64,000 bases of DNA from Ectothiorhodosinus mongolicus (GTDB lineage Bacteria; Pseudomonadota; Gammaproteobacteria; Ectothiorhodospirales; Ectothiorhodospiraceae): contig NZ_CP023018.1 in the NCBI RefSeq assembly GCF_022406875.1, forward strand, positions 717,575-781,574, written 5' to 3'. Position numbers and translations under genes: made by a program. Shown piece by piece: positions 1-14,021 of this stretch (position 1 is its first letter; each line of letters opens with the position of its first letter). Under the pieces are notes generated by a model. The model saw only the letters and a program-made list of their open reading frames with translations, searched no databases and had not been told where the DNA came from.

Positions 1-246
1 CAGTGCCCGCTCAGTTTCGTCGCGTGCAGTACATTCGCCCCAGTCGTTGCCATTGGACAGAATCGCAGCGTCAATCTCTAAGTCTGATGCCCACCGCGCG
101 ACCCGGTCGGGTGCATTGAGCAGTGGCAGAAGCACGATTTCGGGAGAGATCACGTGAAGGTAGCGATACCAGTCCTCGCTCACCGCGTCGCGCGCCTCGC
201 CATGTACGGGTTCTATCATCCGTCTTGTCGAGATGGCTATCCGCAT
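1..246 (-). CDS. Class I amidotransferase-like protein, probable gamma-glutamyl-CDP-amidate hydrolase (partial)
   Basis: This reading frame opens with ATG at 246 and runs off the left edge, so only the first 82 residues are visible. It begins MRIAIS, has the EARDAVSEDWYRYL segment and a LSNGNDW motif around residue 70, followed by ARDETERAL. That pattern is typical of the gamma-glutamyl hydrolase (peptidase C26-like) branch of class I glutamine amidotransferases. The catalytic Cys and His/Glu would lie outside the window. It follows the dikinase-type gene by 38 bp. In Campylobacter jejuni the equivalent pair (Cj1418 and Cj1417) makes phosphoglutamine and releases cytidine diphosphoramidate for capsule modification. 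That role is an inference from family resemblance and gene order. Confidence 0.7.
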   Translation of the reverse strand, partial: MRIAISTRRMIEPVHGEARDAVSEDWYRYLHVISPEIVLLPLLNAPDRVARWASDLEIDAAILSNGNDWGECTARDETERAL

Positions 247-284
247 GTTGGTCCGTCCATTACCGACTACACTCCGTGGTGTTA

Positions 285-2747
285 TCAGTGCTCCACCAGC
301 TTGATGGTGCCTGCGGCACAGTCCAACTCGATCTGGTTGCTGCGCGTGACTCGCTCGAAGATCTGCTCACCGCAGCCGATGGCGGCAGGGATATTCAACT
401 CCGCGCACCGGATCGCCATATGCGAATTCGCCCCCCCGAACTGCGTCACCAGCCCCAGAATGTTGCGGGTAAAGATCCAGTCGAAACCGGGATCGGCGCT
501 TTCGATGGCAACGATCTTGCCGTCCAGCAAACCTGGGGCGATGTTGGTGCTGCTGACATGTAAGCAGACACCAGTCACCTGTTTGAGGGTTACGAAATTG
601 GGCTGTTCAAGCAGCATCGGCACGACAAAGAGATCCGAGTGCCGTGTCAGCAGGAAGGGCAAGCGCACACCAGTCGTAACCTCGTGTTCTCGCCTTCCAG
701 ACTCGGCGCGGACGCGCAAATGCTCCTCGAAGGAACGGCCATGCTGAACCACAGTGCAATCCATCAATTCGCGGATATCGAGATGCGACAGTTCGTCCCG
801 GCTCAGGCGCTGGTCCTCACCCCAGGCGGCTAGCACTTCCAAGCAGGCGCTGATACTGCGTGTGAAGACCAGCTTAGCCCATTCGCGACCTCGGATCGCC
901 TCGCGGCAATATTGCAGGAAGTCATTACAGGAGAGGGAAAAACCTGCGGCCGAGAGCCGCTTTTCGATCTCGGCGGATTTCGCTGGACTCAAAACGAAGG
1001 GTTCGGTTGCGGGAGGCGAGTCGCCCGAGATAGAAAACACCTCCTCGCCACGCTGGTCATAACGCAGCGACATAATGTCATAGGTGCCTGGGCGCAGATG
1101 CCCATAATCGCGCAGCAGATCCTCCAGTTTGATCTCGCCTTCCCGAAAGCGGTGAATATTGACGATGAATTCGGTGACAACGCTGGTGATGCTCTGGTTG
1201 AACGCATTGATGTCGTCGCCACTCAGCAAGCCCTCCTCGCGTAAAGATTGTAGCAGCGCCTTGGCGATGAACCCATGCCGCGCGAGAATCGAGAAGGGGA
1301 TAGTGCCCAGCTCGATGCAATTTTCTAGCAATTCCCTAGCCAGATCGATCGTAGGGGGGTGTTCTTGCTCACCTGCCAGCACCTCGTATCTCGCCTGCAA
1401 CTCATTCACAGCGATCACCTGCTGGGCAACAGAGGCCCGGCGTCCGTCAACTAGATCCACCGTCATTTCGCGATAAGCTTCGTGGATCAGGACCATCTCG
1501 TCTTGGGTGACATCCTCGGGGAGCATCTGCCGTGCGCGGGTGTCGAAATCGAAGGTCCAAGCTGTCAGGGCGATGCCGAATTCAACCTTGTCGTGTAGCA
1601 ACGGGTTATCGGCCAGTTTGTGCAGCCAGTACAACACCATGCGATTTGCCAGATCGTCTGGGATGGTTGCAGGAATGAAACTACGCAGGCTCTGGCGTAC
1701 GTCAATATACGGCTGGCCAGCGCAGGATACCATCAGCGGCTTGCCGCGCGGATGGAAATAGCCCATGCGCTCGCGGGCCACGCGCCAGACACTGTCGGTG
1801 ATGACATAGCGGTAGAGACTGAAGGCTAATCGCCGTGGCGCGTTACCGATGATCTCAGCCGGGTTCCAGTCCGGCATCTTGCCAAGGATAGTCGCGGTTT
1901 TTGAATCCCCACCCTCCAGAAGCAACCGTGGTGCGACGGATTTCTCCAGCCGCACCAGCGCATCGTCGATGCGCTGGCTCAGCCCACGGCTCCAGTTCGG
2001 CTGGGCGGTGATGCGCCGGGCCTGAAAGAGATGGATGTGGTGATCCATGTCGATGGCGAACTCAATATCGAGAGAGGATTCACCGGTGATCTGCTCGATC
2101 TCGCGCACCGCTGAGAGCAGCTGTAAAAATCGCTCGGACCGCACGGTATCGACGTGATCACGGTGGATGTAGATGGTGCGGTTAACGTAGCCCGTTCCCG
2201 ATGTCACCGAATCGGTCAAGCCGGTCTCGTCGTCGTAATTAACAACATAATAGGGTGCGCCGCTACTAAGCACCTGGGTAAAGATCACACCGCTCATCGA
2301 CACCCGGTCGACCATCTTCTGTACCAAAACCTGATCTTCGGAATTGGACTCGGCAGCGGCACCCCGATAGCTAGCAAATACCTCCTCGATGGCCGATATC
2401 AAGGCCGCCCTGTCCGCTGGCGGGATATGGGGCACCGACAAAAACGCGCCGGCTTGAGCATAAAGCTCGCCATCTTCGTTCCGTGCCGAGGATCGCACGA
2501 TGACTGTACCCTTGCCATCCGCCAGATCCGCGATATCGGCCAGCACTGCATCGTGGCTCATCTGCCAGCGGGCGAGGTCAAAATGTCGGAATTGCGGAAT
2601 CGACCATCTTTTCAGCTCGCCATCTAGCCGGGCAAGGGTTTCGGCTTTCGAGCCGAACTGAAATGTTTTTCTGACCTTCACGAAATTAAGAAGATTACTT
2701 GTGTAGTTCACGTCTATTTTAGGTTTACCAAGCACCCCAGCCTCCAT
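285..2747 (-). CDS. PEP-synthase-like phosphotransferase, probable L-glutamine kinase (phosphoramidate biosynthesis)
   Basis: This 820-residue protein has a pyruvate-phosphate-dikinase-type ATP-binding domain at about 1-250 (GSKAETL at 32-38, VRSSARNEDG at 84-93, LDIEFAID and LFQARRI at 226-246). A long central region of about 250-720 follows. The C-terminus is a swivelling phosphohistidine domain, with GGANSH at 771-776 placing the catalytic His at 776. The PEP-binding barrel of true PEP synthase is absent. The ATP/acceptor/His layout matches rifampin phosphotransferase and the C. jejuni glutamine kinase Cj1418. Company with nonulosonate genes and a downstream gamma-glutamyl hydrolase-like gene favours glutamine kinase. 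The start overlaps the SDR gene by 23 bp, suggesting coupling. The acceptor substrate is inferred, not shown. Confidence 0.7.
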   Translation of the reverse strand: MEAGVLGKPKIDVNYTSNLLNFVKVRKTFQFGSKAETLARLDGELKRWSIPQFRHFDLARWQMSHDAVLADIADLADGKGTVIVRSSARNEDGELYAQAGAFLSVPHIPPADRAALISAIEEVFASYRGAAAESNSEDQVLVQKMVDRVSMSGVIFTQVLSSGAPYYVVNYDDETGLTDSVTSGTGYVNRTIYIHRDHVDTVRSERFLQLLSAVREIEQITGESSLDIEFAIDMDHHIHLFQARRITAQPNWSRGLSQRIDDALVRLEKSVAPRLLLEGGDSKTATILGKMPDWNPAEIIGNAPRRLAFSLYRYVITDSVWRVARERMGYFHPRGKPLMVSCAGQPYIDVRQSLRSFIPATIPDDLANRMVLYWLHKLADNPLLHDKVEFGIALTAWTFDFDTRARQMLPEDVTQDEMVLIHEAYREMTVDLVDGRRASVAQQVIAVNELQARYEVLAGEQEHPPTIDLARELLENCIELGTIPFSILARHGFIAKALLQSLREEGLLSGDDINAFNQSITSVVTEFIVNIHRFREGEIKLEDLLRDYGHLRPGTYDIMSLRYDQRGEEVFSISGDSPPATEPFVLSPAKSAEIEKRLSAAGFSLSCNDFLQYCREAIRGREWAKLVFTRSISACLEVLAAWGEDQRLSRDELSHLDIRELMDCTVVQHGRSFEEHLRVRAESGRREHEVTTGVRLPFLLTRHSDLFVVPMLLEQPNFVTLKQVTGVCLHVSSTNIAPGLLDGKIVAIESADPGFDWIFTRNILGLVTQFGGANSHMAIRCAELNIPAAIGCGEQIFERVTRSNQIELDCAAGTIKLVEH

Positions 2748-3540
2748 CGACCCATAGATTCTGACCCGTTACATACCGGGACATATCGCTGGCCAGGTAT
2801 GCGATAGCGCCACGAAAATCCTCCTCTATGGCCATGCGCTTCAACGGCGTCTTATCTTCATAGCGCCGCACGAACGCCTCCGGTTGATTCCGCAACACAC
2901 CTCCTGGCGAGATGGCATTGACTCGCACATCAGGCGCAAGCGTGGTCGCCAGCCAGCGAGTCAATTGGATCAGGCCACCCTTGGACGCGGCATAGGCGGC
3001 CGGGTTGCCCATCGTTGTGCCCATCGTTGCGCCCTCGTACAGACGCCAGTCGGGGCCGTACTCGCCGTAGATTGAGCTTATGTTGATAATATTACCTCCA
3101 CACGCCGCTCGGAGCTCTGGCGTAAAGGCCTGTGAGAGGTGAAAAGCGGCGGTCAGGTTGACTTCCATGGCCCTGCGCCAAGTGTCCAGGGTCTGCTCCT
3201 CAAAGGACCCGACCCAGCCTTGCAAATTCGAGTCACCAACGAATGCGGCGTTGTTGATCAAGCTATTGAGGCCCCGACCATCGGCCTTGACGGTTTCGAT
3301 CAGCGCCCTTCGTTGGTCTTCAATTTCCAGGTCACAAACCAGAGCCAGCGTCACTATTGACCATTTGGCCTGCAAGTCCTCCACCAGTGGGCCAAGGTCA
3401 CAGCCCGGGCGATCCACAAGCACCAGGTCGGCGCCGAGCTCGGCCAGGGTGTCGGCCATCACCCGCCCCAGGCCACCGGCCGCACCGGTGATCAGGGCAC
3501 GACGCCCGCGCAGATCCATAAGTCCCTTGAGGGTGGTCAT
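2725..3540 (-). CDS. SDR-family oxidoreductase, PtmA-like
   Basis: This is a 271-residue short-chain dehydrogenase. The TGAAGGLG nucleotide-binding loop lies at 18-25, NNAA at about 96-99, the catalytic Ser at about 155-156 and YAASK at 183-187. The C-terminal YVTGQNLWVDGG segment is a family hallmark. Similar enzymes (PtmA) stand beside the CMP-sugar synthetase in Campylobacter legionaminate clusters, where they are implicated in supplying the glucosamine precursor. The exact substrate cannot be read from sequence. The gene overlaps the upstream cytidylyltransferase by 4 bp and the downstream kinase by 23 bp. A short internal repetition (MGTTMG near 173-178) lies in the loop before the active-site Tyr. 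Confidence 0.8.
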   Translation of the reverse strand: MTTLKGLMDLRGRRALITGAAGGLGRVMADTLAELGADLVLVDRPGCDLGPLVEDLQAKWSIVTLALVCDLEIEDQRRALIETVKADGRGLNSLINNAAFVGDSNLQGWVGSFEEQTLDTWRRAMEVNLTAAFHLSQAFTPELRAACGGNIINISSIYGEYGPDWRLYEGATMGTTMGNPAAYAASKGGLIQLTRWLATTLAPDVRVNAISPGGVLRNQPEAFVRRYEDKTPLKRMAIEEDFRGAIAYLASDMSRYVTGQNLWVDGGWGAW

Positions 3541-4253
3541 GCCTCACCCTGCCGCTTGTTCATCAGCAACTCGGCAATCTGGAAATCCAGCAGGCTATCT
3601 ATATCAATTGCCCTCTCAATAGGCACGTGTACTGCCCTTACCCTCCCCAGAAACAAAGAGTCATTTTCCATCACGAATTTAGGGCTCATAACATAGGCTA
3701 CTGTCGTCATATCAAACAGCGTAGGAGCATCCTGTCTTCTTGGGATTCCATTCGAGGCTGAAATGACCAGTTCGAATCTACCATCCGATTTCTCTTTAAC
3801 CATATTGAAATACGGATTCCGATGAGGTTCTGTGACAGTAATTACTGCATCACACTCATTCTTAAAATATAGATCTAAGCACCTCTCTATATCTTGTGGC
3901 AACCGCAACGGCGCAGTCACAGGAACACTAACCATCACATCAGGGTAGGAACCGTCTTCCTTTTGGACAAACTCAAGCGCATGACGCCAAGCAAGCCATT
4001 CAGGCGAAGAATCTGTAGCGAGCTCGTCAGGACGCAGGAATGGAACTTCAGCACCGTATTCGGCAGCAACAGTTGCAATTTCTTGGCAATCAGTCGACAC
4101 AATGACTCGACGGATTCGTTTAACAGCTTTGGCATGCTCAATCGCCCAAGCAATCAGAGGCTTACTATTTAATGGGCGAATATTCTTCCCTGGAAGTCCC
4201 TTTGAGCCGCAGCGCGCGAATATAAACGCAATGACATTAGGCTCATAAGCCAT
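3537..4253 (-). CDS. legF: CMP-nonulosonate (N-acylneuraminate/legionaminate) cytidylyltransferase
   Basis: This 238-residue protein activates a nonulosonic acid with CTP to give the CMP-sugar donor. The diagnostic N-terminal motif ARCGSKGLPGKN at 13-24 binds the nucleotide, and SVPVTAPLR further on is typical of NeuA/NeuA2 enzymes. Presence of LegB, LegC, LegG and LegI in the same operon points to legionaminic rather than sialic acid. It starts inside the 3' end of the oxidoreductase gene (11-bp overlap) and overlaps the SDR by 4 bp. Base composition is lower in GC than the flanking SDR and kinase genes. The symbol is by analogy. Confidence 0.85.
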   Translation of the reverse strand: MAYEPNVIAFIFARCGSKGLPGKNIRPLNSKPLIAWAIEHAKAVKRIRRVIVSTDCQEIATVAAEYGAEVPFLRPDELATDSSPEWLAWRHALEFVQKEDGSYPDVMVSVPVTAPLRLPQDIERCLDLYFKNECDAVITVTEPHRNPYFNMVKEKSDGRFELVISASNGIPRRQDAPTLFDMTTVAYVMSPKFVMENDSLFLGRVRAVHVPIERAIDIDSLLDFQIAELLMNKRQGEA

Positions 4254-5262
4254 ATTTTTTATCCGCGAAAACCCGCGCGCCGTTTAGCTCAGCAGAGCGT
4301 CTGGCCATATCAACCATCGCTAGCACTCGCAGACCAGCATCGCCATCCACAAGTGGCTGTGCACCAGATTCAACACAGCTCAAAAAGTGATCCCATTGTG
4401 CCTTGTAACTATCATCGCGATCATGGGGAATCGAGACGATTTGTTCCCAGTTGGATCTACCTGGATCAAAATGATCGACACAGCCAGTTAAACCATTCCA
4501 ACGCAAAGTCCCCAGTTCACCGATTACGGTGCAAAGTCTGGCTGGATCTCTTCGCACAAAGTCCATGTTCAGATTCACAACGACAGGCTTTTCGCTTGGA
4601 TTAGACCCAAATCCAATATTCAAATAGGCAACATCTTCGACATCGACATCAAGATCGCTTACGTTACCGACCCATGCGTTAAGCCAATGCATCTCTCCAA
4701 AAATCCAGCGTAGATAGTCAAACTCATGACTGAGCTCCAACAACACACCCCCACCCAAATCGCCCCTTGCAGACACGCCAGCACGATAATCGGTGTTCGG
4801 GCGCCAATCGGGCAAATACTGTCCAATTTCACAACGCACGGAAAGCGGCTTACCGACCAATCCCTCGTTAATCAAATCGCGAAACCGTGACAGTGAGGGC
4901 AAATAACGCAAGTTGTACCCGACTTGGCCGATCACGCCTGCTGCACGAACAGTATCAAGAAAGTCCGCTACGTCATCTGACTTATCAGCAATTGGTTTTT
5001 CGATGAGCAGATGACAGCCCATCTCAGCCAATGCGTTAGCAATACCCAAATGAAAAGGTGCTGGGTTCGCGACTATTGCAGCTTGCGGCGCAAACGATCG
5101 TACGTCATCCATAGACGAGGTAACTAAATTTGCCATCTCGGGAATATCGGTCGTTCGCTCATGACGAAAGACCATAATCGTAGCGTCGGGCAGGCTCTCA
5201 CGAACGATTCTCACATGCCGCTTGCCAACACTCCCATGCCCTACAATCAGGATACGTTTCAA
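4243..5262 (-). CDS. Gfo/Idh/MocA-family oxidoreductase (TTG start)
   Basis: This NAD(P)-dependent sugar oxidoreductase starts with a Rossmann fold (KRILIVGHGSVGKRH) and has an LIEKPIAD motif containing the family EKP signature. I chose the TTG at 5262, not the upstream ATG at 5319, because translation then begins directly at the Rossmann strand and the TTG overlaps the TGA of the HisF-like gene by 4 bp. That gives 339 residues. It lies where Campylobacter clusters carry ptmF, between the amidotransferase genes and the CMP-sugar synthetase. It probably acts on the glucosamine precursor or the finished nonulosonate; the substrate is unknown. Confidence 0.78.
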   Translation of the reverse strand: MKRILIVGHGSVGKRHVRIVRESLPDATIMVFRHERTTDIPEMANLVTSSMDDVRSFAPQAAIVANPAPFHLGIANALAEMGCHLLIEKPIADKSDDVADFLDTVRAAGVIGQVGYNLRYLPSLSRFRDLINEGLVGKPLSVRCEIGQYLPDWRPNTDYRAGVSARGDLGGGVLLELSHEFDYLRWIFGEMHWLNAWVGNVSDLDVDVEDVAYLNIGFGSNPSEKPVVVNLNMDFVRRDPARLCTVIGELGTLRWNGLTGCVDHFDPGRSNWEQIVSIPHDRDDSYKAQWDHFLSCVESGAQPLVDGDAGLRVLAMVDMARRSAELNGARVFADKKYGL

Positions 5263-6083
5263 TTTTTTACACCATCCGTTAGACGCAGGTTTTCTTCCAC
5301 TTGATTTGGTGGCGGCCATTTAGCGAGTTGTATTTCTTGCTCTGTAACTAGAGCACGGGCCTTTTTCAGCCCATCACCCACAAAATTAAATAAATGCGCT
5401 GTCGCAACGGCATCCACTCTTTTGTCGCACAAGCCTTTTAACAGATGCAGACCGTGACCAGCACCTCCTGCCAATATGATTGGGAGATTAAGACCTGCTG
5501 GACATAGGTTCAGAACACTCAAATCAAACCCTCGCCCAGTGCCATCCTGATTGATTGAATTAAGATAAAGTTCTCCAACGCAATCAGAAGGAATCTTTTC
5601 TAACAAATCACTCACTGATTCGCACTTCATTTCACTGCCATTTTTCGTGTAAAGACCGAACACTCCATCAGAATTTCGTTTAAGGTCGATAGAACCAACA
5701 ACACACTGCTGTCCGAATTCCTGAGCCAAATTAGCAACCAGCCGCTGATCATCAAATAAAGCCGAATTCACTACCACTTTATCAGCCCCTGATCTGAGAA
5801 GAGTCCGGGCATGCTCCAAGTCACGCACCCCACCCCCAGCGGCGATGGGCGCAAAGCAACCTTTTGTGAGCGCCTTTAAAGTTTCTGAGAAGCGATTTAC
5901 ATCCCTCTGGGAACGACTTACATCTAACACAACAAGTTCGTCGATGTAAAAAGCGATATGAGCAAAGTTATAGTTTTTTTGAAGCCAATCAATTGTGCCT
6001 ACTTTCTGCAAACGAAAATTACGGCTGAGCACGAAATGCCCATTGTCATAGAGCAGGGTGAAAATAATCCGCTTTTTTAACAC
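5259..6083 (-). CDS. HisF-like ammonia-channelling subunit (paralogue lacking one catalytic Asp)
   Basis: This is a 274-residue TIM-barrel protein of the HisF family, slightly longer than histidine-pathway HisF. The strand-1 catalytic Asp of true HisF (CLDVKDG) is replaced: the aligned segment reads TLLYDNG at about 9-15. The second region, GSIDLKR, is kept, while the later SIDRDGT reads SINQDGT. This fits a HisF2/WbpI-type paralogue that passes ammonia from HisH to a sugar amidotransferase and does not make imidazole glycerol phosphate. HisH lies directly upstream and the PseA/WbpG-type enzyme beyond it. No other histidine genes are present in the window. The region is AT-rich. Confidence 0.82.
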   Translation of the reverse strand: MLKKRIIFTLLYDNGHFVLSRNFRLQKVGTIDWLQKNYNFAHIAFYIDELVVLDVSRSQRDVNRFSETLKALTKGCFAPIAAGGGVRDLEHARTLLRSGADKVVVNSALFDDQRLVANLAQEFGQQCVVGSIDLKRNSDGVFGLYTKNGSEMKCESVSDLLEKIPSDCVGELYLNSINQDGTGRGFDLSVLNLCPAGLNLPIILAGGAGHGLHLLKGLCDKRVDAVATAHLFNFVGDGLKKARALVTEQEIQLAKWPPPNQVEENLRLTDGVKN

Positions 6084-6084
6084 T

Positions 6085-6714
6085 TCAAGCGCTCAGAAAA
6101 TTATCAAGCAACTTTAGTCCGTTAGTCTGACTTTTTTCCGGATGGAATTGTGCGCCAAACACATTTTCATTCTGATAGGCCGAGAGAAAGTCAACGCCAT
6201 AATTGCAGATCGCTTTCGCACCTGGAAACAATCCAGGAAGCATGCGATATGAATGAACAAAGTAGAAATCTGCTGAACCACTAAAGCCGTCGAAAAAATC
6301 AGATTCACCTGGCAAAAACACTTCATTGAACCCAATATGAGGGAGCTTTCTGCCACTTAACTCTTCTGAATTAAAACGTTCAATTTTTGCTGGGATGATA
6401 CCTAGACCAGCACAAGAACCGTCTTCAGTAGAAGACTCTCCTAGCAATTGGAACCCCAGACAGATCCCCAGAATTTTTCGGTTTCTTATGGTTACGGCTT
6501 CCTTGATCGCCTCATCAAGTCCCGTCTTTTGCAATTCTTGCAGCGCTGAACGAAATGACCCAACACCTGGAAGCACGAGTGCTTCCGCATTGACGATTAC
6601 TGACGGATCTGAGCTAACAATGGCTCTGGCACCCAAGAAGTCCAATGCACTAAGCACAGACCAGATGTTACCCTTACCATAATCAACTATGACAACATGT
6701 TGTGACTTGTTCAT
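6085..6714 (-). CDS. HisH-like glutamine amidotransferase subunit
   Basis: This is a 209-residue class I glutaminase. The nucleophile elbow LGICLG gives Cys85, and FHPE near the end supplies His191 and Glu193, so the triad is intact. It hydrolyses glutamine to release ammonia. With the adjacent HisF-like barrel it is expected to feed the sugar amidotransferase encoded upstream (4-bp overlap), as in acetamidino-sugar clusters of Pseudomonas and Campylobacter. The alternative, a second copy of histidine biosynthesis, is unlikely because HisF has lost a catalytic residue. Confidence 0.87.
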   Translation of the reverse strand: MNKSQHVVIVDYGKGNIWSVLSALDFLGARAIVSSDPSVIVNAEALVLPGVGSFRSALQELQKTGLDEAIKEAVTIRNRKILGICLGFQLLGESSTEDGSCAGLGIIPAKIERFNSEELSGRKLPHIGFNEVFLPGESDFFDGFSGSADFYFVHSYRMLPGLFPGAKAICNYGVDFLSAYQNENVFGAQFHPEKSQTNGLKLLDNFLSA

Positions 6715-7832
6715 TTCACAGTAAAGATTGGCATCCAGCGGCCGTCTCTCTTCTCGAACAGCTCAGTATTTGCATACTTATCCAGAACCACATCAAACTC
6801 TGCCTTACTCATTTGATAGTAATCTAGATAAGTATCAATATACTCGTCAGGATAGTGGCCATCATAAATACGCACTAAGTTCACTGCCTGTTCACGATCC
6901 ATTGCACCACGCCGAATTTCAATTGAAGCGTCCTGGTTTGCTCGTCCAAAGCCAAATTTTAGGTACATCAAATAGGCATGAAGTGCATACAAGGCTTGAT
7001 CGTTTTGAGCAAAGTTTGTAAATGTCCCGGAGTTCGTATCTTCAGCCTCCTTCAAACCGCAGTGTTCTTTTGCAATGAGGTAGTTGCGGTATGGGTCCCA
7101 GTTTTCAAAATAGGACCAGTGTGTGATATCAATTGGTGATTCTGCTAAGAGTTCGTCATCTGGGAACCTAAAAAATGCAAGATCCGACTCTGCTATCCCC
7201 GAACCTTCCAATACCTTTTCGTAACCGCCCTCAAGGTAAATTTTTTTCATATACTGCACATCATAGATTGGGTTTTTATCCGTCTCGGTTGAGCCACCGT
7301 ATTCGACCTCACCATCCTCGCCATAGAAAATAAGGCCAATCCCAAATTGAGCAGCAATTCTTATAGGGGCAGCCTGAATAGCAATCAGCCAGCCATAATA
7401 CGGAAAGCCCATCTCAACCAGTCCTCGTTTATTAAGTATTCGCATCGCCTCAAATGCTGGATTAATTGAAATATGATTAAAACCACCCTCAACAAAAGCA
7501 CGCAAATTCTTCTCACCCAACTCCAGTGGCAACGCAGGCGTAACGGTGACACACAACGGATGCATTCCATATTTATGTTTCAAATTGTACGCAACATAAG
7601 AGCCATCCTTGCCTCCACTTACTGGAACGAGGCAATCAAATGAGCCATCAGATCGACGATGCTTATCGACAAGACTTACTAGCTCCTTTTCTCGCTGCTT
7701 CCAATCAAGAACTTGCTTCTTTTCCATCCAGCGACACGCATTACACCAACCACGCTCATCAAAAGTAATTCTAGGGCGCGTCGACATAGAAAGACAGTTT
7801 GAACACCATGTAACATCAATTTTATTATTCAT
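6711..7832 (-). CDS. N-acetyl sugar amidotransferase (PseA/WbpG/PtmG family)
   Basis: This 373-residue enzyme converts an N-acetyl group on a sugar into an acetamidino group with ammonia and ATP. It has an N-terminal zinc site (WCSNC ... GWCNAC) and a PP-loop ATP pyrophosphatase motif, SGGKDGS, at about 84-90. I place the start at the ATG at 7832 (MNNKIDVTW), after the end of the preceding gene; a longer in-frame start at 7895 would overlap it. With HisH and HisF it forms the three-part amidination module. Acting on legionaminate it would give a LegAm-type sugar. The gene is AT-rich relative to the flanks. Confidence 0.87.
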   Translation of the reverse strand: MNNKIDVTWCSNCLSMSTRPRITFDERGWCNACRWMEKKQVLDWKQREKELVSLVDKHRRSDGSFDCLVPVSGGKDGSYVAYNLKHKYGMHPLCVTVTPALPLELGEKNLRAFVEGGFNHISINPAFEAMRILNKRGLVEMGFPYYGWLIAIQAAPIRIAAQFGIGLIFYGEDGEVEYGGSTETDKNPIYDVQYMKKIYLEGGYEKVLEGSGIAESDLAFFRFPDDELLAESPIDITHWSYFENWDPYRNYLIAKEHCGLKEAEDTNSGTFTNFAQNDQALYALHAYLMYLKFGFGRANQDASIEIRRGAMDREQAVNLVRIYDGHYPDEYIDTYLDYYQMSKAEFDVVLDKYANTELFEKRDGRWMPIFTVK

Positions 7833-7851
7833 AAACTTTTTGTAGTCCGAT

Positions 7852-8898
7852 TTATAATTCGTTGGCTGCCGACAAGTCCTCATGCCGACCAACATCTAGC
7901 CATGGCTCATGCATAGGGTAAGCAACTGTCTTTAGAGATCTAGCTTGGAGCCGCTCAAAGAGCGTTGGCATATCACAAAACTCGTCATCATTTAACTCTT
8001 GCAACGCCACAGGGGATAATGCATAAACACCAGCATTGATATGCGAGCGAGCGATCGGTTTCTCTTCAAAACCAACAATATTAAGCCCATCCACTTGCAC
8101 AACCCCAAAGGGATGCTGCCACTCATGTAAACGCACGGCCATGGTGGCAATCGATTCTTGTCGCTTATGGAATTCAAGGATCTCTGAATATCGAATATCA
8201 GTAATAACATCACCATTCGTGACAATAAATGGCTCATCAACCAATTCACTTATCATTGACAACGAACCTGCCGTACCTAGGGGCGATTGCTCACGGACAT
8301 ACCGAATTTTTACATTCAAAATACTGCCATCTCCAAAATACTCTTCAATCATCTGTGCCAAATAATTTACAGACAAAATAAATTCAGAAAATCCCTCGTC
8401 TCGAGCACGCTCAATAATATGCTGCAATATCGGCCTACCCCCGACCAGGAGCATAGGCTTCGGGCAGTTTTCCGTATGAGGCCGCAAACGAGTACCTTTA
8501 CCACCCGCCATAATAACCATCTTGTTTGAAATGCTTTTTTTTGTTATGAATTCATCCCAAGTATGCAGACACACAATTCGACCATCACCATCAACTTCGG
8601 GTATCTGCTGGACTTTATTTACTGCCATTAGTTCACGAATAAAAGACGGGGAAATTCCTTCGGGAGCGACCAATGGGTTTTTATGAACAACTTCTGTCAC
8701 ATCGCTATCAAGCGTCACCCCCCGTAATAAACCTCTTCGAATATCCCCATCAGAAACAGTGCCTATTAGTTTCCAAGAATCATCAATCACTAGAACTATT
8801 CTCTGCGAAGACTCGGTCAAATTCCTTGCAGCATCACGCAATGATGCATTTTGCAAAATTACGGCTTTTTTCCAACTATTAGTTGCGACTTGAGTCAC
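7852..8898 (-). CDS. ptmE: CBS-domain sugar nucleotidyltransferase (PtmE-like, probable GlcN-1-P guanylyltransferase)
   Basis: This 348-residue protein carries a CBS-domain pair at about 10-122, then an NTP-transferase domain with MAGGKGTRLRPHTENCPKPM at 130-149. Campylobacter PtmE has this architecture and makes GDP-glucosamine, the GDP-linked entry to legionaminic acid. The CBS domains suggest allosteric control by a nucleotide. Translation appears to start at GTG (8898) with no clear Shine-Dalgarno. It is the first gene after a 162-bp AT-rich gap and may begin a second transcript. The guanylyl specificity is assumed from the pathway. Confidence 0.82.
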   Translation of the reverse strand: MTQVATNSWKKAVILQNASLRDAARNLTESSQRIVLVIDDSWKLIGTVSDGDIRRGLLRGVTLDSDVTEVVHKNPLVAPEGISPSFIRELMAVNKVQQIPEVDGDGRIVCLHTWDEFITKKSISNKMVIMAGGKGTRLRPHTENCPKPMLLVGGRPILQHIIERARDEGFSEFILSVNYLAQMIEEYFGDGSILNVKIRYVREQSPLGTAGSLSMISELVDEPFIVTNGDVITDIRYSEILEFHKRQESIATMAVRLHEWQHPFGVVQVDGLNIVGFEEKPIARSHINAGVYALSPVALQELNDDEFCDMPTLFERLQARSLKTVAYPMHEPWLDVGRHEDLSAANEL

Positions 8899-9060
8899 TT
8901 TTTATACTCAATGAAAAAATTGAAGCTCTAACTATGAACGCGCAAAGAAAGCACTTTTTCGTATTCAAAATCTGCCTAAGTCACACACAACTATGCAATG
9001 CCCTATATACCCCTTCACTTCTTGGAAACGAAGATTCACCCATTTCTGATTCATAAATCC
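8899..9060. other. AT-rich gap within the legionaminate operon
   Basis: This is the only sizeable gap in an otherwise overlapping run of minus-strand genes. It is strongly AT-rich with several A/T runs. It could hold a promoter for ptmE and the genes below it, but I see no convincing -35/-10 pair, terminator or operator. No open frame here looks like a gene. Confidence 0.4.
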
Positions 9061-10221
9061 TCATGGACCAGGCAAATCGTAGAAGCGCTTCTTAAGCAAA
9101 TCACCCAGAAATTGGCTTTCAAGCTTTCGTACAATCGCATCACTCGCCCCAGCATTACCGTAGGGATTTTCTACTGTCGATAACTTAGTCTGAAATTCGG
9201 CCGAGAAAATATGATCAAGTGCCACGCGAATGGATTTACGATTTGGCTCGCTATCAATGACGCTTGCCGCTTTAATCCGTCCTCGCTGCCGATCACCGAT
9301 ATTAATCGTGCCTTTTTTGAAGCTTGGTACCTCCGCAAGCCCACTGGAAGAGTTACCCACAACGCCATCAACATGCTGAATACAGGACAAATAACGCAGC
9401 TGTCCGAGTGAGGTATAGGCTCGGGCGTTCGAATGTTGCAAACAGAAATCCTTAATCTTCTGGAAAAGCACTCGTCCCTCGGTATCCGCATTCGGCATGG
9501 TGAAGATCAGGCCAACGTCTTCCAACTCCGCCAGCGCCGCGAGGATTTCTTGCATCTGATCAGCACTCGTATTGTGCTCTAGGGTTACCGGATGAAAGGT
9601 AATCAAAAGATTGCGCGACAAAAACTTGAAATCCAAATCGGCTTCTAGCTCCTCGCGGGTCAGCAGCTTCAATCGCAGAATATTATCGATACCCAGCCCG
9701 CCGACATTAAATACCCGATCTGGATGTTCGCCCAGCTGAATTACGTGCCGACGGTACTCTTCCGCCGCAACAAAATGCAGGTGCGACATCTTGGTGATGC
9801 TGTGACGAATGGCCTCATCAAAGGCCCCTTCCGTCGTCTCACCACCATGTAAATGTGCGATAGGGATGCGAGCAATCATCGCTGCTGATGCTGCAGCAAA
9901 GATCTCGTAACGATCACCCAGCACCAACATCAGATCGGGCTGCAGATCTGCCAATGCGTCAGCGAAACCGATCATGCCAAGCCCCATAGATTTAGCCACA
10001 CCGATAGGCGTATCGGAACTCAGCAACATCTCTACCTTACGATCAATCTTGAACCCATCGGCTTCAATTGCATTAACCGTCATCCCGAACTCCGGCGAGA
10101 GATGCATGCCGGTCGCCACGAGCTGTAATTCCAATACGCGCGACTGGCGGATACCTTCCATCACCCAACGCAACAAACCATATTCGGCGCGAGTGCCCGT
10201 AACAACGCATATTTTTTTCAT
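9061..10221 (-). CDS. legG: GDP/UDP-N-acetyl sugar 2-epimerase (hydrolysing), LegG/NeuC
   Basis: This is a 386-residue GT-B-fold epimerase. N-terminal VTGTRAEYGLLRWVM, central GDRYEIFAAA and HLHGGETTEGAFDEAIRH, and C-terminal NSSSGLAEVP are all NeuC/LegG hallmarks. It removes the nucleotide while inverting C2, giving the free hexose that LegI condenses with PEP. The start overlaps the synthase stop by 4 bp. The adjoining CBS-nucleotidyltransferase suggests a GDP-linked substrate as in C. jejuni LegG, but sequence alone does not separate GDP from UDP. Confidence 0.9.
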   Translation of the reverse strand: MKKICVVTGTRAEYGLLRWVMEGIRQSRVLELQLVATGMHLSPEFGMTVNAIEADGFKIDRKVEMLLSSDTPIGVAKSMGLGMIGFADALADLQPDLMLVLGDRYEIFAAASAAMIARIPIAHLHGGETTEGAFDEAIRHSITKMSHLHFVAAEEYRRHVIQLGEHPDRVFNVGGLGIDNILRLKLLTREELEADLDFKFLSRNLLITFHPVTLEHNTSADQMQEILAALAELEDVGLIFTMPNADTEGRVLFQKIKDFCLQHSNARAYTSLGQLRYLSCIQHVDGVVGNSSSGLAEVPSFKKGTINIGDRQRGRIKAASVIDSEPNRKSIRVALDHIFSAEFQTKLSTVENPYGNAGASDAIVRKLESQFLGDLLKKRFYDLPGP

Positions 10222-11225
10222 AGCGTGATCAACTCATCTGCTAGAAAATCACGCAATGCCGTTCGTCCGATCACCTCATCCCAGCGCATCGGAGAAACCC
10301 CCATTCCAGGGCGCTTGGTTGTGACATTATCAGGTGTAAAGACCTCACCCTCTTGGATCGCCCTCGCAGCCACCAGCGACTTGCGCGCAATCGGCTTGTT
10401 CTTCAGTTCACTCGGACTAGGGCGCTTGATTCCATCACCCATTGCTTGCTCAATATTACGGATCGCGCTCACCATCGCAGCGAACTCGTCGGGCTCTAAA
10501 CTGGCCATGTGATCGGGGCCGGGCAGATTACGGTCGAGCGTAAGATGTTTTTCGATCACCGTTGCACCCAGCGCCACGGCGGCAATCGGCACTTCAATGC
10601 CCGCCGTATGGTCTGAATAACCAACCTCGACACCAAAGGCATCGCGGATGCTGCACATGGCGCGCAGGTTCACATCCTGCATGGGCGTTGGATACTCGGT
10701 ATTGCAGTGCAAAACCGTAATGCATGAACGCGGCGTTCCAGCACTCTCTAAGACATCAAGCGCAGCTTCAATCTCACCAAGAGTAGCCATCCCCGTGGAA
10801 ATGATTACAGATTTTCCAAATGCACCCACATGCCGCAGATAGGGCAAGTTTGTAATCTCACCAGAGGGTATTTTGAAGCGATCCAAGCCGGCCAAAGACA
10901 GATAATTCAGGCTCTCAATGTCAAATCCGGTTGAGAAGAAGTCGATATTTTTTGAGTGACAATAAGAAATTAAGTCTTGATGCATTTGCGGGCTTAACTC
11001 TAGCTTTTTCAGCATCGCAAATTGCGATTGCGTATCACCGATAGCCTGTGCTTGATACTCTGCCTTAGGCGCATTTTGCGTAACGAGACGGTCCGCACTA
11101 AAGGTCTGGAACTTGACCAAATCTGCGCCCGCCGCTACAGCGGCATCAACCAGCTTTTTAGCCAGAGCAAAATCCCCGTTATGGTTCACTCCAGCTTCGG
11201 CGATGATCAATGTACGTCGGCTCAT
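10218..11225 (-). CDS. legI: N,N'-diacetyllegionaminate synthase (NeuB family)
   Basis: This 335-residue enzyme condenses a 6-carbon diacetamido sugar with PEP to make the 9-carbon nonulosonate. The N-terminus IAEAGVNHNGDFALAKKLVDAA and the DLVKFQTF strand belong to the NeuB TIM barrel. The C-terminal ~55 residues (AARAIQEGEVFTPDNVTTKRPG) form the SAF/antifreeze-like domain. Full length for the family. It is tightly coupled to legG and the acetyltransferase gene by 4-bp overlaps. Legionaminic rather than sialic or pseudaminic acid is inferred from LegB and LegC nearby. Confidence 0.92.
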   Translation of the reverse strand: MSRRTLIIAEAGVNHNGDFALAKKLVDAAVAAGADLVKFQTFSADRLVTQNAPKAEYQAQAIGDTQSQFAMLKKLELSPQMHQDLISYCHSKNIDFFSTGFDIESLNYLSLAGLDRFKIPSGEITNLPYLRHVGAFGKSVIISTGMATLGEIEAALDVLESAGTPRSCITVLHCNTEYPTPMQDVNLRAMCSIRDAFGVEVGYSDHTAGIEVPIAAVALGATVIEKHLTLDRNLPGPDHMASLEPDEFAAMVSAIRNIEQAMGDGIKRPSPSELKNKPIARKSLVAARAIQEGEVFTPDNVTTKRPGMGVSPMRWDEVIGRTALRDFLADELITL

Positions 11226-11833
11226 TTTTTTACGACGCCCCCATCAGGAACATTTGACAGCACAACTTGTCCCGCCCCAATAATCGCATGTGCGCCAATG
11301 CGAATACCCTCTCTAAGAATCGCACCACTTCCAATAAAACAGCCGTTGCCAATTTGAACGTCGCCATTCACGCGCGCTCCAGTCGATATATGGCAGTGAT
11401 CACCAATAATCACATCATGTTCGATCAGCGCCTGGCTATTGACGATGCAATTAACACCAATCTTGGCATTTGCATTCACTACACACCCATGCATCAAAAC
11501 TGTGCCTTCGCCCAGAGTGGCATGCTTGGATTGAATGGCATACGGCGACCTGATCACAGGCAACTCAGTCCCAATGGTCTTGAGCTGTTCGTATAAAAGC
11601 ATGCGGCTTTCAGGAGTGCGGATTTGACCAACCGTAATCAAGGCTTTTGAAGTTTGAGCAAGCAAGATCGGGAGATCATCATCGGATCCAACAATCGGGT
11701 AGCCCATGACGGATAGCGATTGTTCTTCTGAAGGCTGAACAATTCCGGCAACGCGATATAAGCCCTCGGCTTCAATGACATCAATACATGAGTGACAATG
11801 GCCACCGCCGCCAATCAGCAAGAGCGATGTCAT
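11222..11833 (-). CDS. legH: Sugar O/N-acyltransferase, left-handed beta-helix (LegH/NeuD/PglD)
   Basis: This is a 203-residue protein. An N-terminal Rossmann-like half (LLLIGGGGHCHSCIDVIE) is followed by hexapeptide repeats from about residue 105 (GEGTVLMHG, NCIVNSQALIEHD, NGCFIGSGAILREG). The layout matches PglD/NeuD/LegH transferases, which acetylate the 4-amino sugar made by the aminotransferase LegC. The conserved His in the EHD segment is the likely base. It overlaps both neighbours by 4 bp. Confidence 0.87.
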   Translation of the reverse strand: MTSLLLIGGGGHCHSCIDVIEAEGLYRVAGIVQPSEEQSLSVMGYPIVGSDDDLPILLAQTSKALITVGQIRTPESRMLLYEQLKTIGTELPVIRSPYAIQSKHATLGEGTVLMHGCVVNANAKIGVNCIVNSQALIEHDVIIGDHCHISTGARVNGDVQIGNGCFIGSGAILREGIRIGAHAIIGAGQVVLSNVPDGGVVKK

Positions 11834-13017
11834 GCTAGCCCCGCACTACTCGGAATATTAATCAGGCGTCGGGCAAGCGACTCCGCAACCGACAGCGGCG
11901 CACGCGGACACTGTTGATAAGGCGGAAGTTGGTGCAACAGCCCCCACGCAGGCCGGGTCATCAGGCCTGCATCGTTTGTTGCCGTCAAAACCGCATCACG
12001 CTGATCCGCGACCGCTTCATCCAATAGAAGAGTCTGCAGCCAATAATTACTGCGACAATCCTTCGGCTCACGCATCAACCGAACCGACTCCACACCTCGG
12101 AAAGCTTCTGCATATCTCTCAGCCAAACGCCGCTTAGACGCCAGAAAGCTCGGCAACTGTTCAAACTGGGCACACCCAAGCGCAGCATTTAGATTCGGCA
12201 TACGGAAGTTATAACCAATTTCATCATGCACATAGTCCCAGCGATGCGGCTGTTTTGCTGTTGTGGTGAGATGTTTGGCGTGATCCGCAAGACGCTCATC
12301 ATTCGTCAGAATCGCGCCGCCACCACCCGTCGTGATCACTTTATTTCCGTTAAAACTCAGGGCGCCAAGCTCCCCGAATGCGCCAGTGTGCTGTCCCTGA
12401 TAGTAACTACCCAAGGATTCCGCAGCATCTTCAACAAGGGCAAGCCGATAGTCATGCGCAATCGTAAGAAGCCCTTCCAGATCACAAGGGTGGCCAAAGG
12501 TATGCATAGGCACGATTGCGCGAATCGGACAACCTGTATGACGATTGCGACTCCCAGCCGCCGTCGGCTCGGCAACATGCTTCAGCCAGTCTTTCAGCGC
12601 AGCAGGATCCATCCCTAGCGTATCTTCAGCGCTATCGACGAAATGGGGCGTCGCACCAAGGTAATGCACGGCGTTAGCCGTAGCGACGAATGTCAGTGTC
12701 GGCACAATCACTTCATCACCCGCCTGCACGCCAGCCAACTGCAAGGCCACCTGCAAAGCAGCCGTGCCATTCACAACGGCTACCGCACGACGCGCTCCCG
12801 TAAAAGCTGCCAGCTCTTGTTCGAACCGATCAACATATCGCCCCACGGAAGATACGAAAGTCGAAGTAATGCATTCTTGCACATAGGCCTGTTCATTGCC
12901 CTGGAAACGGGGTTCGTGCAGCACGCACGAGCCATCTCCCAAAACCGAACGCAGCGCTTGGATGACGCTCTGTTCCAAAGAGGTTTTCATTGCTGTTGCG
13001 ACGTCTTGTTGCATCAA
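11830..13017 (-). CDS. legC: PLP-dependent sugar aminotransferase LegC
   Basis: This 395-residue DegT/DnrJ/EryC1-family aminotransferase has VVNGTAALQVALQLAG at about 81-96, LVEDAAESLGSYY at about 194-206 and SFNGNKVITTGGGG, which puts the PLP lysine at 226. It transfers an amino group from glutamate to the 4-keto sugar made by LegB. The FNGNK variant (instead of FNxxK/FHxxK) is usual for LegC-like enzymes. It is coupled to legB and legH by 4-bp overlaps. Confidence 0.9.
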   Translation of the reverse strand: MMQQDVATAMKTSLEQSVIQALRSVLGDGSCVLHEPRFQGNEQAYVQECITSTFVSSVGRYVDRFEQELAAFTGARRAVAVVNGTAALQVALQLAGVQAGDEVIVPTLTFVATANAVHYLGATPHFVDSAEDTLGMDPAALKDWLKHVAEPTAAGSRNRHTGCPIRAIVPMHTFGHPCDLEGLLTIAHDYRLALVEDAAESLGSYYQGQHTGAFGELGALSFNGNKVITTGGGGAILTNDERLADHAKHLTTTAKQPHRWDYVHDEIGYNFRMPNLNAALGCAQFEQLPSFLASKRRLAERYAEAFRGVESVRLMREPKDCRSNYWLQTLLLDEAVADQRDAVLTATNDAGLMTRPAWGLLHQLPPYQQCPRAPLSVAESLARRLINIPSSAGLA

Positions 13018-14021
13018 ATGTTGTAGATATCCGCTTTGTAGCCGCGCAGATTCTCAGGATTTACAAACCACTCCGCGGTTTCCGCGAGCCCACGCTTAAA
13101 ACCATCCCGTCCCGCATACTGCGGCGACCAGCCAAACAACTCGCGAGCCTTATTATTATCGGCCCAAAGCCGCTCAACTTCTGAGTTGCCTGGGCGTAGT
13201 CGGGTTTCTTCGGTGATAATTTCAATTTCTATACCCATCGCTTCAGCAATCAGCTGGGCTGTATCACCGATAGAAATCTCAAAATTGCTACCGAAATTGA
13301 TCACTTCGCCGCAGCCGGCTTCACTATTCAATGCGACAATAAACCCAGCAACCGTGTCCTTAACGTAGTTAAAGTCACGCGTTGGAGAAACTGCACCCAG
13401 CTTGATCTGTCGCGTGCCGCTCGCAATTTGAGTAATGATGGTGGGAATCACTGCTCGAGCAGACTGGCGCGGCCCATAGGTATTGAAAGGCCGAGCAATC
13501 ACAACCGGCAAATCAAATGACGCATAGAAGGCATGTGCCAGCTGATCAGCTGCAATCTTAGTGGCTGAGTAAGGCGACTGCCCCTGAAGAGGATGGGCCT
13601 CAGTAATGGGCACAAACTGCGCTGTACCGTACACCTCACTGGTTGACGTATGGACCACCCTTCGCACACCAAGCTCACGAGCGGCCTGAAGCACGTTCAA
13701 AGTACCCTTGATATTGGTATCAACATACGTATCAGGTGAGTGGTAAGAGTATGGAATTGCAATGAGCGCAGCCAAATGCAAGGCCGCATGGCAACCTTTC
13801 ATTGCCTCTTTAACTCCATAAGGATCGCGAATATCTCCCGCGAAGACCTCGAATTTTCCTTTGACATCGGGCGAACAATGATCCAACCAACCCCAACTAT
13901 TAAAGGAGTTGTAGAGAACAAAGGCTTTGACTTCATGCCCTGCACGCACAAGCGCTTCTGTGAGGTGAGAACCGATGAATCCGTCAGCACCAGTGACCAA
14001 AACAGTGGATTTAGTGGACAT
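13014..14021 (-). CDS. legB: NAD-dependent 4,6-dehydratase LegB
   Basis: This 335-residue extended SDR begins with the VTGADGFIGSHL nucleotide-binding motif at 9-20. The NSFNSWGWLD segment around 38-48 is a strong marker of the LegB/nonulosonate dehydratase group. TSTSEVYG and PYSATK supply the Ser/Thr and YxxxK active site. It makes the 4-keto-6-deoxy intermediate that commits UDP-GlcNAc or GDP-GlcNAc to legionaminate. It is the second gene of the operon, 18 bp after the ABC transporter. Confidence 0.9.
   Translation of the reverse strand: MSTKSTVLVTGADGFIGSHLTEALVRAGHEVKAFVLYNSFNSWGWLDHCSPDVKGKFEVFAGDIRDPYGVKEAMKGCHAALHLAALIAIPYSYHSPDTYVDTNIKGTLNVLQAARELGVRRVVHTSTSEVYGTAQFVPITEAHPLQGQSPYSATKIAADQLAHAFYASFDLPVVIARPFNTYGPRQSARAVIPTIITQIASGTRQIKLGAVSPTRDFNYVKDTVAGFIVALNSEAGCGEVINFGSNFEISIGDTAQLIAEAMGIEIEIITEETRLRPGNSEVERLWADNNKARELFGWSPQYAGRDGFKRGLAETAEWFVNPENLRGYKADIYNI

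Follow-up and report, generated by a model that had tools for sequence, protein, structure and literature searches.

The subject of this analysis is a 64,000-nucleotide stretch of the Ectothiorhodosinus mongolicus genome (hereafter the window; G000:C1:717575-781574 in a complete chromosome of 1,995,095 bases), at whose left end a putative L-glutamine kinase of 820 amino acids (285-2747, minus strand) adjoins a block of acetamidino-legionaminate genes. Two 20-kb stretches to the left of the window were also read. Our results indicate that this operon probably makes an acetamidino-legionaminate-type sugar together with an activated phosphoramidate, the latter in a stepwise scheme ending with its transfer to a nonulosonate glycan. 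In this scheme, the kinase would N-phosphorylate glutamine, a MobA-like enzyme would join phosphoglutamine and cytidine monophosphate (CMP) to gamma-glutamyl-cytidine diphosphate (CDP)-amidate, and an amidotransferase would split off glutamate to leave CDP-phosphoramidate. An enzyme resembling adenosine 5'-phosphosulfate (APS) kinase would add a phosphate at the 3' position, and the resulting donor would resemble 3'-phosphoadenosine 5'-phosphosulfate (PAPS) in shape. From this donor, a sulfotransferase-fold protein may move the phosphoramidate onto a hydroxyl of the nonulosonate glycan, and a formyltransferase-like protein may tailor donor or product. A phosphoramidate pathway had been put forward in the original prediction, which was made from the letters of the window; protein families, gene order and profile scores support it, and from these we infer all of the reactions, the acceptor, and the role of the transferase.

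Between 285 and 14021, the kinase gene and the genes of the legionaminate block all lie on the minus strand, neighbours nearly all overlap, and the widest gap measures 162 bases (8899-9060); the genes are presumably cotranscribed as one operon. Leftwards on the same strand, the kinase gene is followed after 38 bases by that of a putative gamma-glutamyl-CDP-amidate hydrolase of 224 amino acids (G000:C1:717146-717820, window -428 to 246), whose N-terminal 82 amino acids occupy window positions 1-246 and whose gene extends past the window edge to -428. The next three genes, each overlapping the preceding one by four bases, encode a MobA/LicC-like cytidylyltransferase (chromosome positions 716382-717149, 255 amino acids), an APS-kinase-like protein, putatively a CDP-phosphoramidate kinase (715870-716385, 171 amino acids), and a two-domain formyltransferase-like protein (714536-715873, 445 amino acids). 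After a further 34 bases, the gene of a sulfotransferase-fold candidate transferase of 330 amino acids follows (713509-714501).

Pfam assigned to the kinase PPDK_N and the phosphoenolpyruvate (PEP)-utilizers mobile domain, which is the phosphohistidine domain, and nothing else, in agreement with its earlier description as a dikinase-type protein with only ATP-grasp, acceptor and phosphohistidine domains. Its best NCBIfam model, PRK05849 (NF004508), reached 837 bits over residues 26-817; because this match starts at residue 26, the start codon is uncertain. The histidine previously named as catalytic, His776 (residue 775 without the first Met), is identical in all 85 aligned sequences including the window's, as are Arg84, Glu228, Gln241 and Arg243 (numbered without Met). 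That the kinase is instead a relative of rifamycin phosphotransferase or PEP synthase, serving resistance or central metabolism and standing beside glycan genes by chance, is very improbable. It has domains in common with these enzymes, but scores 21.4 bits against the rifamycin phosphotransferase model (NF041857, cut-off 999) and 43.6 bits against that of PEP synthase (TIGR01418, cut-off 739.75), and Pfam found no C-terminal PEP-binding domain, so that both assignments were rejected. Two further PPDK_N proteins encoded elsewhere in the genome score far higher to PPDK_N (427 and 149 bits), and the gene cassette is conserved across kinase loci. The kinase is far from both enzymes, a closer relationship to which would have told against the original prediction.

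The gamma-glutamyl hydrolase-like amidotransferase announced for the position after the kinase was recovered as a Peptidase_C26/GATase protein, whose best NCBIfam model is that of gamma-glutamyl-CDP-amidate hydrolase (NF045546, the Cj1417 model) with 65.7 bits. In an alignment of 64 sequences including its own, the nucleophile Cys is present in all 64, and the His and Glu are each present in 63, the remaining one being a gap. By coordinates, the best match to the Cj1417 model adjoins the kinase in eight of the nine kinase-bearing genomes of the class; in the ninth (G367), no such match lies at the kinase, and a hydrolase profile built for this analysis finds a hydrolase in the locus concerned (L024). 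The cytidylyltransferase predicted to lie left of the window is present by family, together with the APS-kinase-like protein. Its nearest solved structure is CTP:phosphocholine cytidylyltransferase, and no NCBIfam equivalog at its cut-off occurred among the matches listed. The APS-kinase-like protein matches PF01583 (78.5-79.6 bits) and NF004041 (135.6 bits, over the cut-off of 127), fails the apsK equivalog (81 vs. 138.7 bits), and is the only clear member of its family in the complete genome, two other P-loop matches of about 48 positions (21.1 and 21.2 bits) lying just at the family cut-off.

The kinase was detected by a family search in 9 of the 369 genomes of the class, the window's included, and at least 554 relatives were found in a genome contig collection. 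The best 80 of these relatives and 8 loci of the class were combined into a set of 88 loci, the window's own excluded, 52 of which were well flanked, i.e., with 6 kb or more of sequence to either side of the kinase. Cassette genes were counted in six frames with hand-set score thresholds (for the hydrolase at least 90 bits, which excludes HisH). Counted up to 8 kb from the kinase, the hydrolase was present in 51 of the 52 well-flanked loci, the cytidylyltransferase in 50, the APS-kinase-like gene in 39 and the formyltransferase-like gene in 26; hydrolase and cytidylyltransferase occurred together in 50, all four pathway genes in 38, and all five genes in 20. With stricter scores, the respective numbers were 50, 50, 38 and 26, with 49 for the pair, 37 for four genes and 20 for five; within 5 kb, they were 50, 50, 36 and 25, with 35 for four genes and 20 for five. 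Furthermore, fused genes were observed: cytidylyltransferase-like and kinase domains share a single open reading frame (ORF) in 17 of the 88 loci, hydrolase and kinase are fused in L066, and APS-kinase-like protein and kinase in L018; in L025 and L077, the APS-kinase-like protein is joined to the N-terminal domain of the formyltransferase-like protein. This N-terminal domain and the formyltransferase-like domain are parts of a single polypeptide in the window, L034, L048, L052, L086, L098, L102 and others, and are encoded separately by neighbouring genes at many of the other loci. The fusions tie all five cassette proteins into one process.

These data also bear on the alternative that the product of the cassette is some other CDP-activated group, with the dikinase phosphorylating an acceptor other than glutamine, which we consider improbable. 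It would fit the phosphocholine enzyme as nearest solved match of the cytidylyltransferase, and COG1213 cytidylyltransferases accept phosphocholine, phosphoglycerate and other substrates, according to the accessible part of PMC12275187. Moreover, the hydrolase remains far under the cut-off of the Cj1417 model (250 bits), hence outside that equivalog, and none of 54 kinase genomes passes this cut-off, although 53 of them hold some match. The same values weigh against the phosphoramidate pathway, as does the nature of the likeness to Cj1415-Cj1418 of Campylobacter jejuni, which is one of family and order. However, a gamma-glutamyl-hydrolase-type amidotransferase is found near the kinase in nearly every well-flanked locus (51/52), the window hydrolase has the Cj1417 model as its best match, and a phosphocholine or sugar route would have no evident use for a hydrolase.

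The phosphoramidate pathway inferred for the window has relatives in many lineages. Among the best 80 kinase loci, the bacterial ones belong to Proteobacteria, Planctomycetota, Omnitrophota, Acidobacteria, Cyanobacteria (Prochlorococcus), Verrucomicrobia, Bacteroidetes, Chloroflexi (Anaerolineales), Fibrobacterota, KSB1 and others, and the archaeal ones to a halophilic archaeon, Haloferax elongans and a Woesearchaeote. Campylobacter was absent from these 80 loci, and none was named among the PDB matches. The locus of the marine cyanobacterium Prochlorococcus sp. AG-347-N23 (L034) contains the window's five genes in the window's order, with the formyltransferase-like protein fused. The kinase was also found in 14 plasmid records, including some from Vibrio, Azospirillum and Cupriavidus; one of the 14 is at the same time locus L070. 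Nine phage records showed partial cytidylyltransferase matches, and of 19 viral-contig stretches fitting a search pattern, none encodes a relative.

The second half of the proposed product depends on the legionaminate block, which begins directly beside the kinase. It comprises a PtmA-like short-chain dehydrogenase/reductase (SDR; 2725-3540, NF050062 with 112.9 bits, under the cut-off of 350), a CMP-nonulosonate synthetase of the PseF-like family (3537-4253, TIGR03584 with 130 bits, under 205.7), a Gfo/Idh-type oxidoreductase (4243-5319, with inositol and UDP-GlcNAc dehydrogenase matches under their cut-offs), and the acetamidino synthesis proteins HisF/WbuZ-like (5259-6083, TIGR03572 with 225 bits, under 299.7), HisH-like amidotransferase (6085-6714, TIGR01855 with 204 bits, over cut-off) and WbuX N-acetyl sugar amidotransferase (6711-7895, TIGR03573 with 357 bits, over cut-off). 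These are followed by a nucleotidyltransferase with an N-terminal KpsF/CBS-like part, identified from its ORF and an NCBIfam scan (7852-8898), which we take to be PtmE-like, a NeuC-type 2-epimerase (9061-10221, TIGR03568 with 483 bits) and a NeuB-type nonulosonate synthase (10218-11225, TIGR03569 with 507 bits), both over cut-off. An acyltransferase-like ORF from the ORF list (11222-11833), presumably LegH-like, a LegC-family aminotransferase (11830-13017, TIGR04181 with 547 bits, over cut-off) and an epimerase/dehydratase-like ORF from the same list (13014-14021), presumably LegB-like, complete the block. The acetamidino-legionaminate assignment of the original prediction is therefore upheld by NCBIfam, with LegC, NeuB, NeuC, WbuX and HisH over their cut-offs and the HisF/WbuZ-like, CMP-synthetase-like and PtmA-like proteins under theirs.

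The link between this block and the cassette is by itself only suggestive, because glycan genes generally cluster: WbuX was found in 41 of the 369 genomes of the class, and in three of the nine with the kinase. Repeated gene order is stronger support than the presence of WbuX. In a gammaproteobacterial metagenome-assembled genome (L038), which also has the cassette, 10 of the 12 block genes are present, 46-77% identical to the window's, and identity is 51% for the sulfotransferase and 44% for the kinase; the same ten block genes occur in L061 at 36-62%. In both loci, the order WbuX-HisH-HisF-Gfo-CMP synthetase-SDR is that of the window; next comes the sulfotransferase gene, immediately adjacent to that of the kinase, beyond which the cassette genes stand in an order different from the window's. 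A Magnetovibrio locus (L057) shows the order WbuX-HisH-HisF-sulfotransferase-kinase. A phosphoramidate-decorated nonulosonate glycan is thus a fair prediction. To the left of the window, transposase-like ORFs were noted by eye (L005:9557-10384 and L006:16785-18662), suggesting a shuffled glycan region.

A transferase had been expected downstream of the cassette, and a candidate is indeed present there, namely the 330-residue sulfotransferase-fold protein, for which the transferase role is proposed. It matches PF00685 over the cut-off (43.1 bits) and is the sole PF00685 protein of the genome; its structural model (predicted local distance difference test, pLDDT, 83.8) retrieved sulfotransferases at the top of a Foldseek list of 50 matches. 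Residues G29, R32, G34 and K35 of a 5'-phosphate-type loop and the pair R165-x7-S173 are identical in all seven aligned relatives. The R-x7-S spacing corresponds to that between the Arg and Ser which bind the 3'-phosphate in PAPS enzymes. In the complete genome, neither the PF01747 ATP sulfurylase nor CysD was found, CysN not having been searched. Since this protein is also the only one of its family in the genome, it most likely uses a phosphoramidate donor; without APS, there would be neither a substrate for an APS kinase nor PAPS, which makes 3'-phospho-CDP-phosphoramidate the simplest reading of the donor.

The family of this protein is rare, being present in 2 of the 369 genomes of the class and in 1 of 398 genomes of the phylum, the window's own; it was found at 6 of the best 80 kinase loci, the set from which its search model came. 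Where the kinase locus has a sulfotransferase-like neighbour, an APS-kinase-like gene is always present (14/14), as opposed to 45 of the 74 loci without such a neighbour (p 0.004); in the well-flanked loci, the counts are 10/10 vs. 29/42 (p 0.05). A second alternative accepts the phosphoramidate pathway and regards the sulfotransferase-fold protein as a conventional sulfotransferase that acts on the nonulosonate with PAPS, the phosphoramidate being transferred by the product of another gene, e.g., a 493-residue glycosyltransferase-like protein encoded further left of the cassette, or of an unlinked one. This is a serious possibility, if not the one we favour, and several findings speak for it and against a phosphoramidate donor. 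Four of the six other genomes with the sulfotransferase family at a kinase locus have CysD or ATP sulfurylase, so that PAPS may be available there (the genomes of L057 and L061 lack both), and the congener G223 has CysD. The other carrier in the class, G130, encodes its sulfotransferase on a contig of 7.4 kb that has no cassette genes and where the surrounding ORFs look, by eye, to be of nonulosonate type; its draft assembly of 130 contigs shows no kinase. The association with the APS-kinase-like gene depends, moreover, on threshold and distance, falling to 13/14 vs. 44/74 with a stricter score (p 0.016) and to 11/14 vs. 44/74 within 5 kb (p 0.23); because of this sensitivity it is given little weight. 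What argues against an ordinary sulfotransferase is the genome of the window itself, where PF01747 and CysD were not found, leaving no evident PAPS, and where no second PF00685 protein exists.

In the phosphoramidate scheme, the formyltransferase-like protein may provide a further tailoring step. Its model has a pLDDT of 92.8, and the C-terminal half (residues 206-433) superimposes on the Escherichia coli methionyl-tRNA formyltransferase Fmt with Z 17.8 and a root-mean-square deviation of 3.4 over 195 aligned residues; the matches listed in a search with the whole model span about residues 202-444 and not the N-terminal domain. Formyltetrahydrofolate-dependent formyltransferases carry the catalytic residues Asn-x-His...Asp. 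In all 33 family members at kinase loci, the window's own included, His-x-His replaces Asn-x-His and the Asp is kept, a count that excludes a separate formyltransferase cluster of 11 proteins, in five of which the motif was read (Asn in three, Gly in two). The N-terminal domain of 190 residues is mostly helical in the model; no Pfam family was matched by more than one of 15 members, and a sequence comparison with the PDB gave weak matches only, the best being designed helical proteins.

No methyltransferase was found among the cassette genes at the window's locus, and the nearest one seen, of FkbM type, lies some 2 kb past the gene of the sulfotransferase; the methyl group implied by the earlier label O-methyl phosphoramidate (MeOPN) is not supported. 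Neighbour clusters (c9, c17, c22, c25, c29 and c41) were derived from a greedy ORF set, in which genes under longer opposite-strand ORFs can be hidden. The formyltransferase-like gene is present in 0 of 11 loci with a c9-type methyltransferase vs. 38 of the 77 others (p 0.002), and in 0/7 vs. 26/45 of the well-flanked loci (p 0.01), these p-values being rough, as related loci were counted as independent. This exclusion would be consistent with the two serving as alternative modifications of one group; no significant exclusion was obtained for the methyltransferase clusters c20 and c35.

Several variants of the cassette were noted. In a second type, kinase and cytidylyltransferase-like domain form a fusion, and an APS-kinase-like gene is mostly missing (L019, L020, L060, L062, L074, L080, L081, L091, L094, L095, L097, L099, L101, L103 and L104, and also L022 and L096, the two exceptions to the missing gene). 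Among well-flanked loci, an APS-kinase-like gene was found within 8 kb in 1 of 11 of the fused and 38 of 41 of the unfused type (p 2e-7; 1/11 vs. 37/41 with stricter scores), and the donor of fused-type cassettes may not be 3'-phosphorylated. Proteins resembling CDP-glycerol glycerophosphotransferases (PF04464) also occur near the cassette, matched by the scanned members of c17 (L019, L021, L066, L067, L074, L094, L095, L099 and L101, six of these nine being of the fused type) and c22 (L044, L050, L051, L053, L056, L079, L086 and L088, where c22 precedes APS-kinase-like or formyltransferase-like genes). They are possible alternative phosphoramidate transferases; an exclusive use of sulfotransferase-like or PF04464-like neighbours was not significant (p 0.06-0.09). 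Another family, of about 415 amino acids with a hydrophobic N-terminal stretch, was seen at L028:14300-15556, L031:14494-15741, L035:12923-14140, L062:356-1627 and L092:16416-17717, adjoining the APS-kinase-like gene in three loci; its one scanned member, from L031, had no Pfam match, and a profile comparison showed the family not to be sulfotransferase-like. A profile comparison gave no support for the c30 proteins being sulfotransferase-like (hhalign probability 0.1).

Taken further, these observations could mean that phosphoramidate decoration is widespread and modular in prokaryotes, that sulfotransferase-fold enzymes transfer the group from 3'-phospho-CDP-phosphoramidate, and that the His-x-His formyltransferase-like protein adds a second P-N tailoring, such as N-formylation, in place of O-methylation; as a whole, this proposal is speculative and rather unlikely. 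The use of transferases with a sulfotransferase fold is a suggested reason for a PAPS-shaped donor, and the sulfotransferase-fold and formyltransferase-like proteins become directly testable.

The presence of the gene set in many phyla and in archaea is unlike the Campylobacter-only view of reviews, one of which (2022, PMC9561416), in its accessible portion, calls the glutamine kinase C. jejuni-specific, while another (2019, PMC6429109), as far as excerpted, states that the modification was so far identified only in Campylobacter. A reach beyond this genus is not wholly new. A MeOPN-like cluster was reported in 2025 from structure prediction for Borg extrachromosomal elements (PMC12660748); it, too, lies outside Campylobacter, but in archaeal elements and, in the available part of that report, without a stated legionaminate link. 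Likewise, the accessible sections of PMC3907429, PMC3210612 and PMC8042644 describe methyl-free phosphoramidate in the lipopolysaccharide (LPS) of Xanthomonas and Shewanella, and the cassette is a genetic candidate for such unmethylated phosphoramidates of Gram-negative LPS. The literature covered, which lacked most subscription papers, contained no announcement of such a cassette beside legionaminate genes, of a phosphoramidate transferase with a sulfotransferase fold, or of the formyltransferase-like protein.

Compared with the PAPS pathway and its sulfotransferases, the window's locus shares an APS-kinase-family enzyme and a sulfotransferase fold with R-x7-S and the 5'-phosphate loop, but differs in its APS-kinase-like protein, which fails the apsK equivalog, and in the genome's PF01747 and CysD, which were not found. 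With known acetamidino-legionaminate clusters (LegC/NeuB/NeuC and WbuX-HisH-HisF) it has the five families over NCBIfam cut-offs in common, whereas the window's block runs directly into phosphoramidate genes. The C. jejuni steps leading to 3'-phospho-CDP-phosphoramidate are described in the accessible parts of PMC6429109, PMC3907429, PMC12409886 and PMC10919079. The kinase, hydrolase, cytidylyltransferase and APS-kinase-like classes of the window stand in the Cj1418-to-Cj1415 order. In C. jejuni, Cj1419 and Cj1420 are the methyltransferases for the O-methyl group, and Cj1421 and Cj1422 the transferases. The C. jejuni pathway is located in the capsular polysaccharide cluster, whereas the window's cassette adjoins legionaminate genes, contains no methyltransferase, and adds the two-domain formyltransferase-like protein with its His-x-His motif and the sulfotransferase-fold protein.

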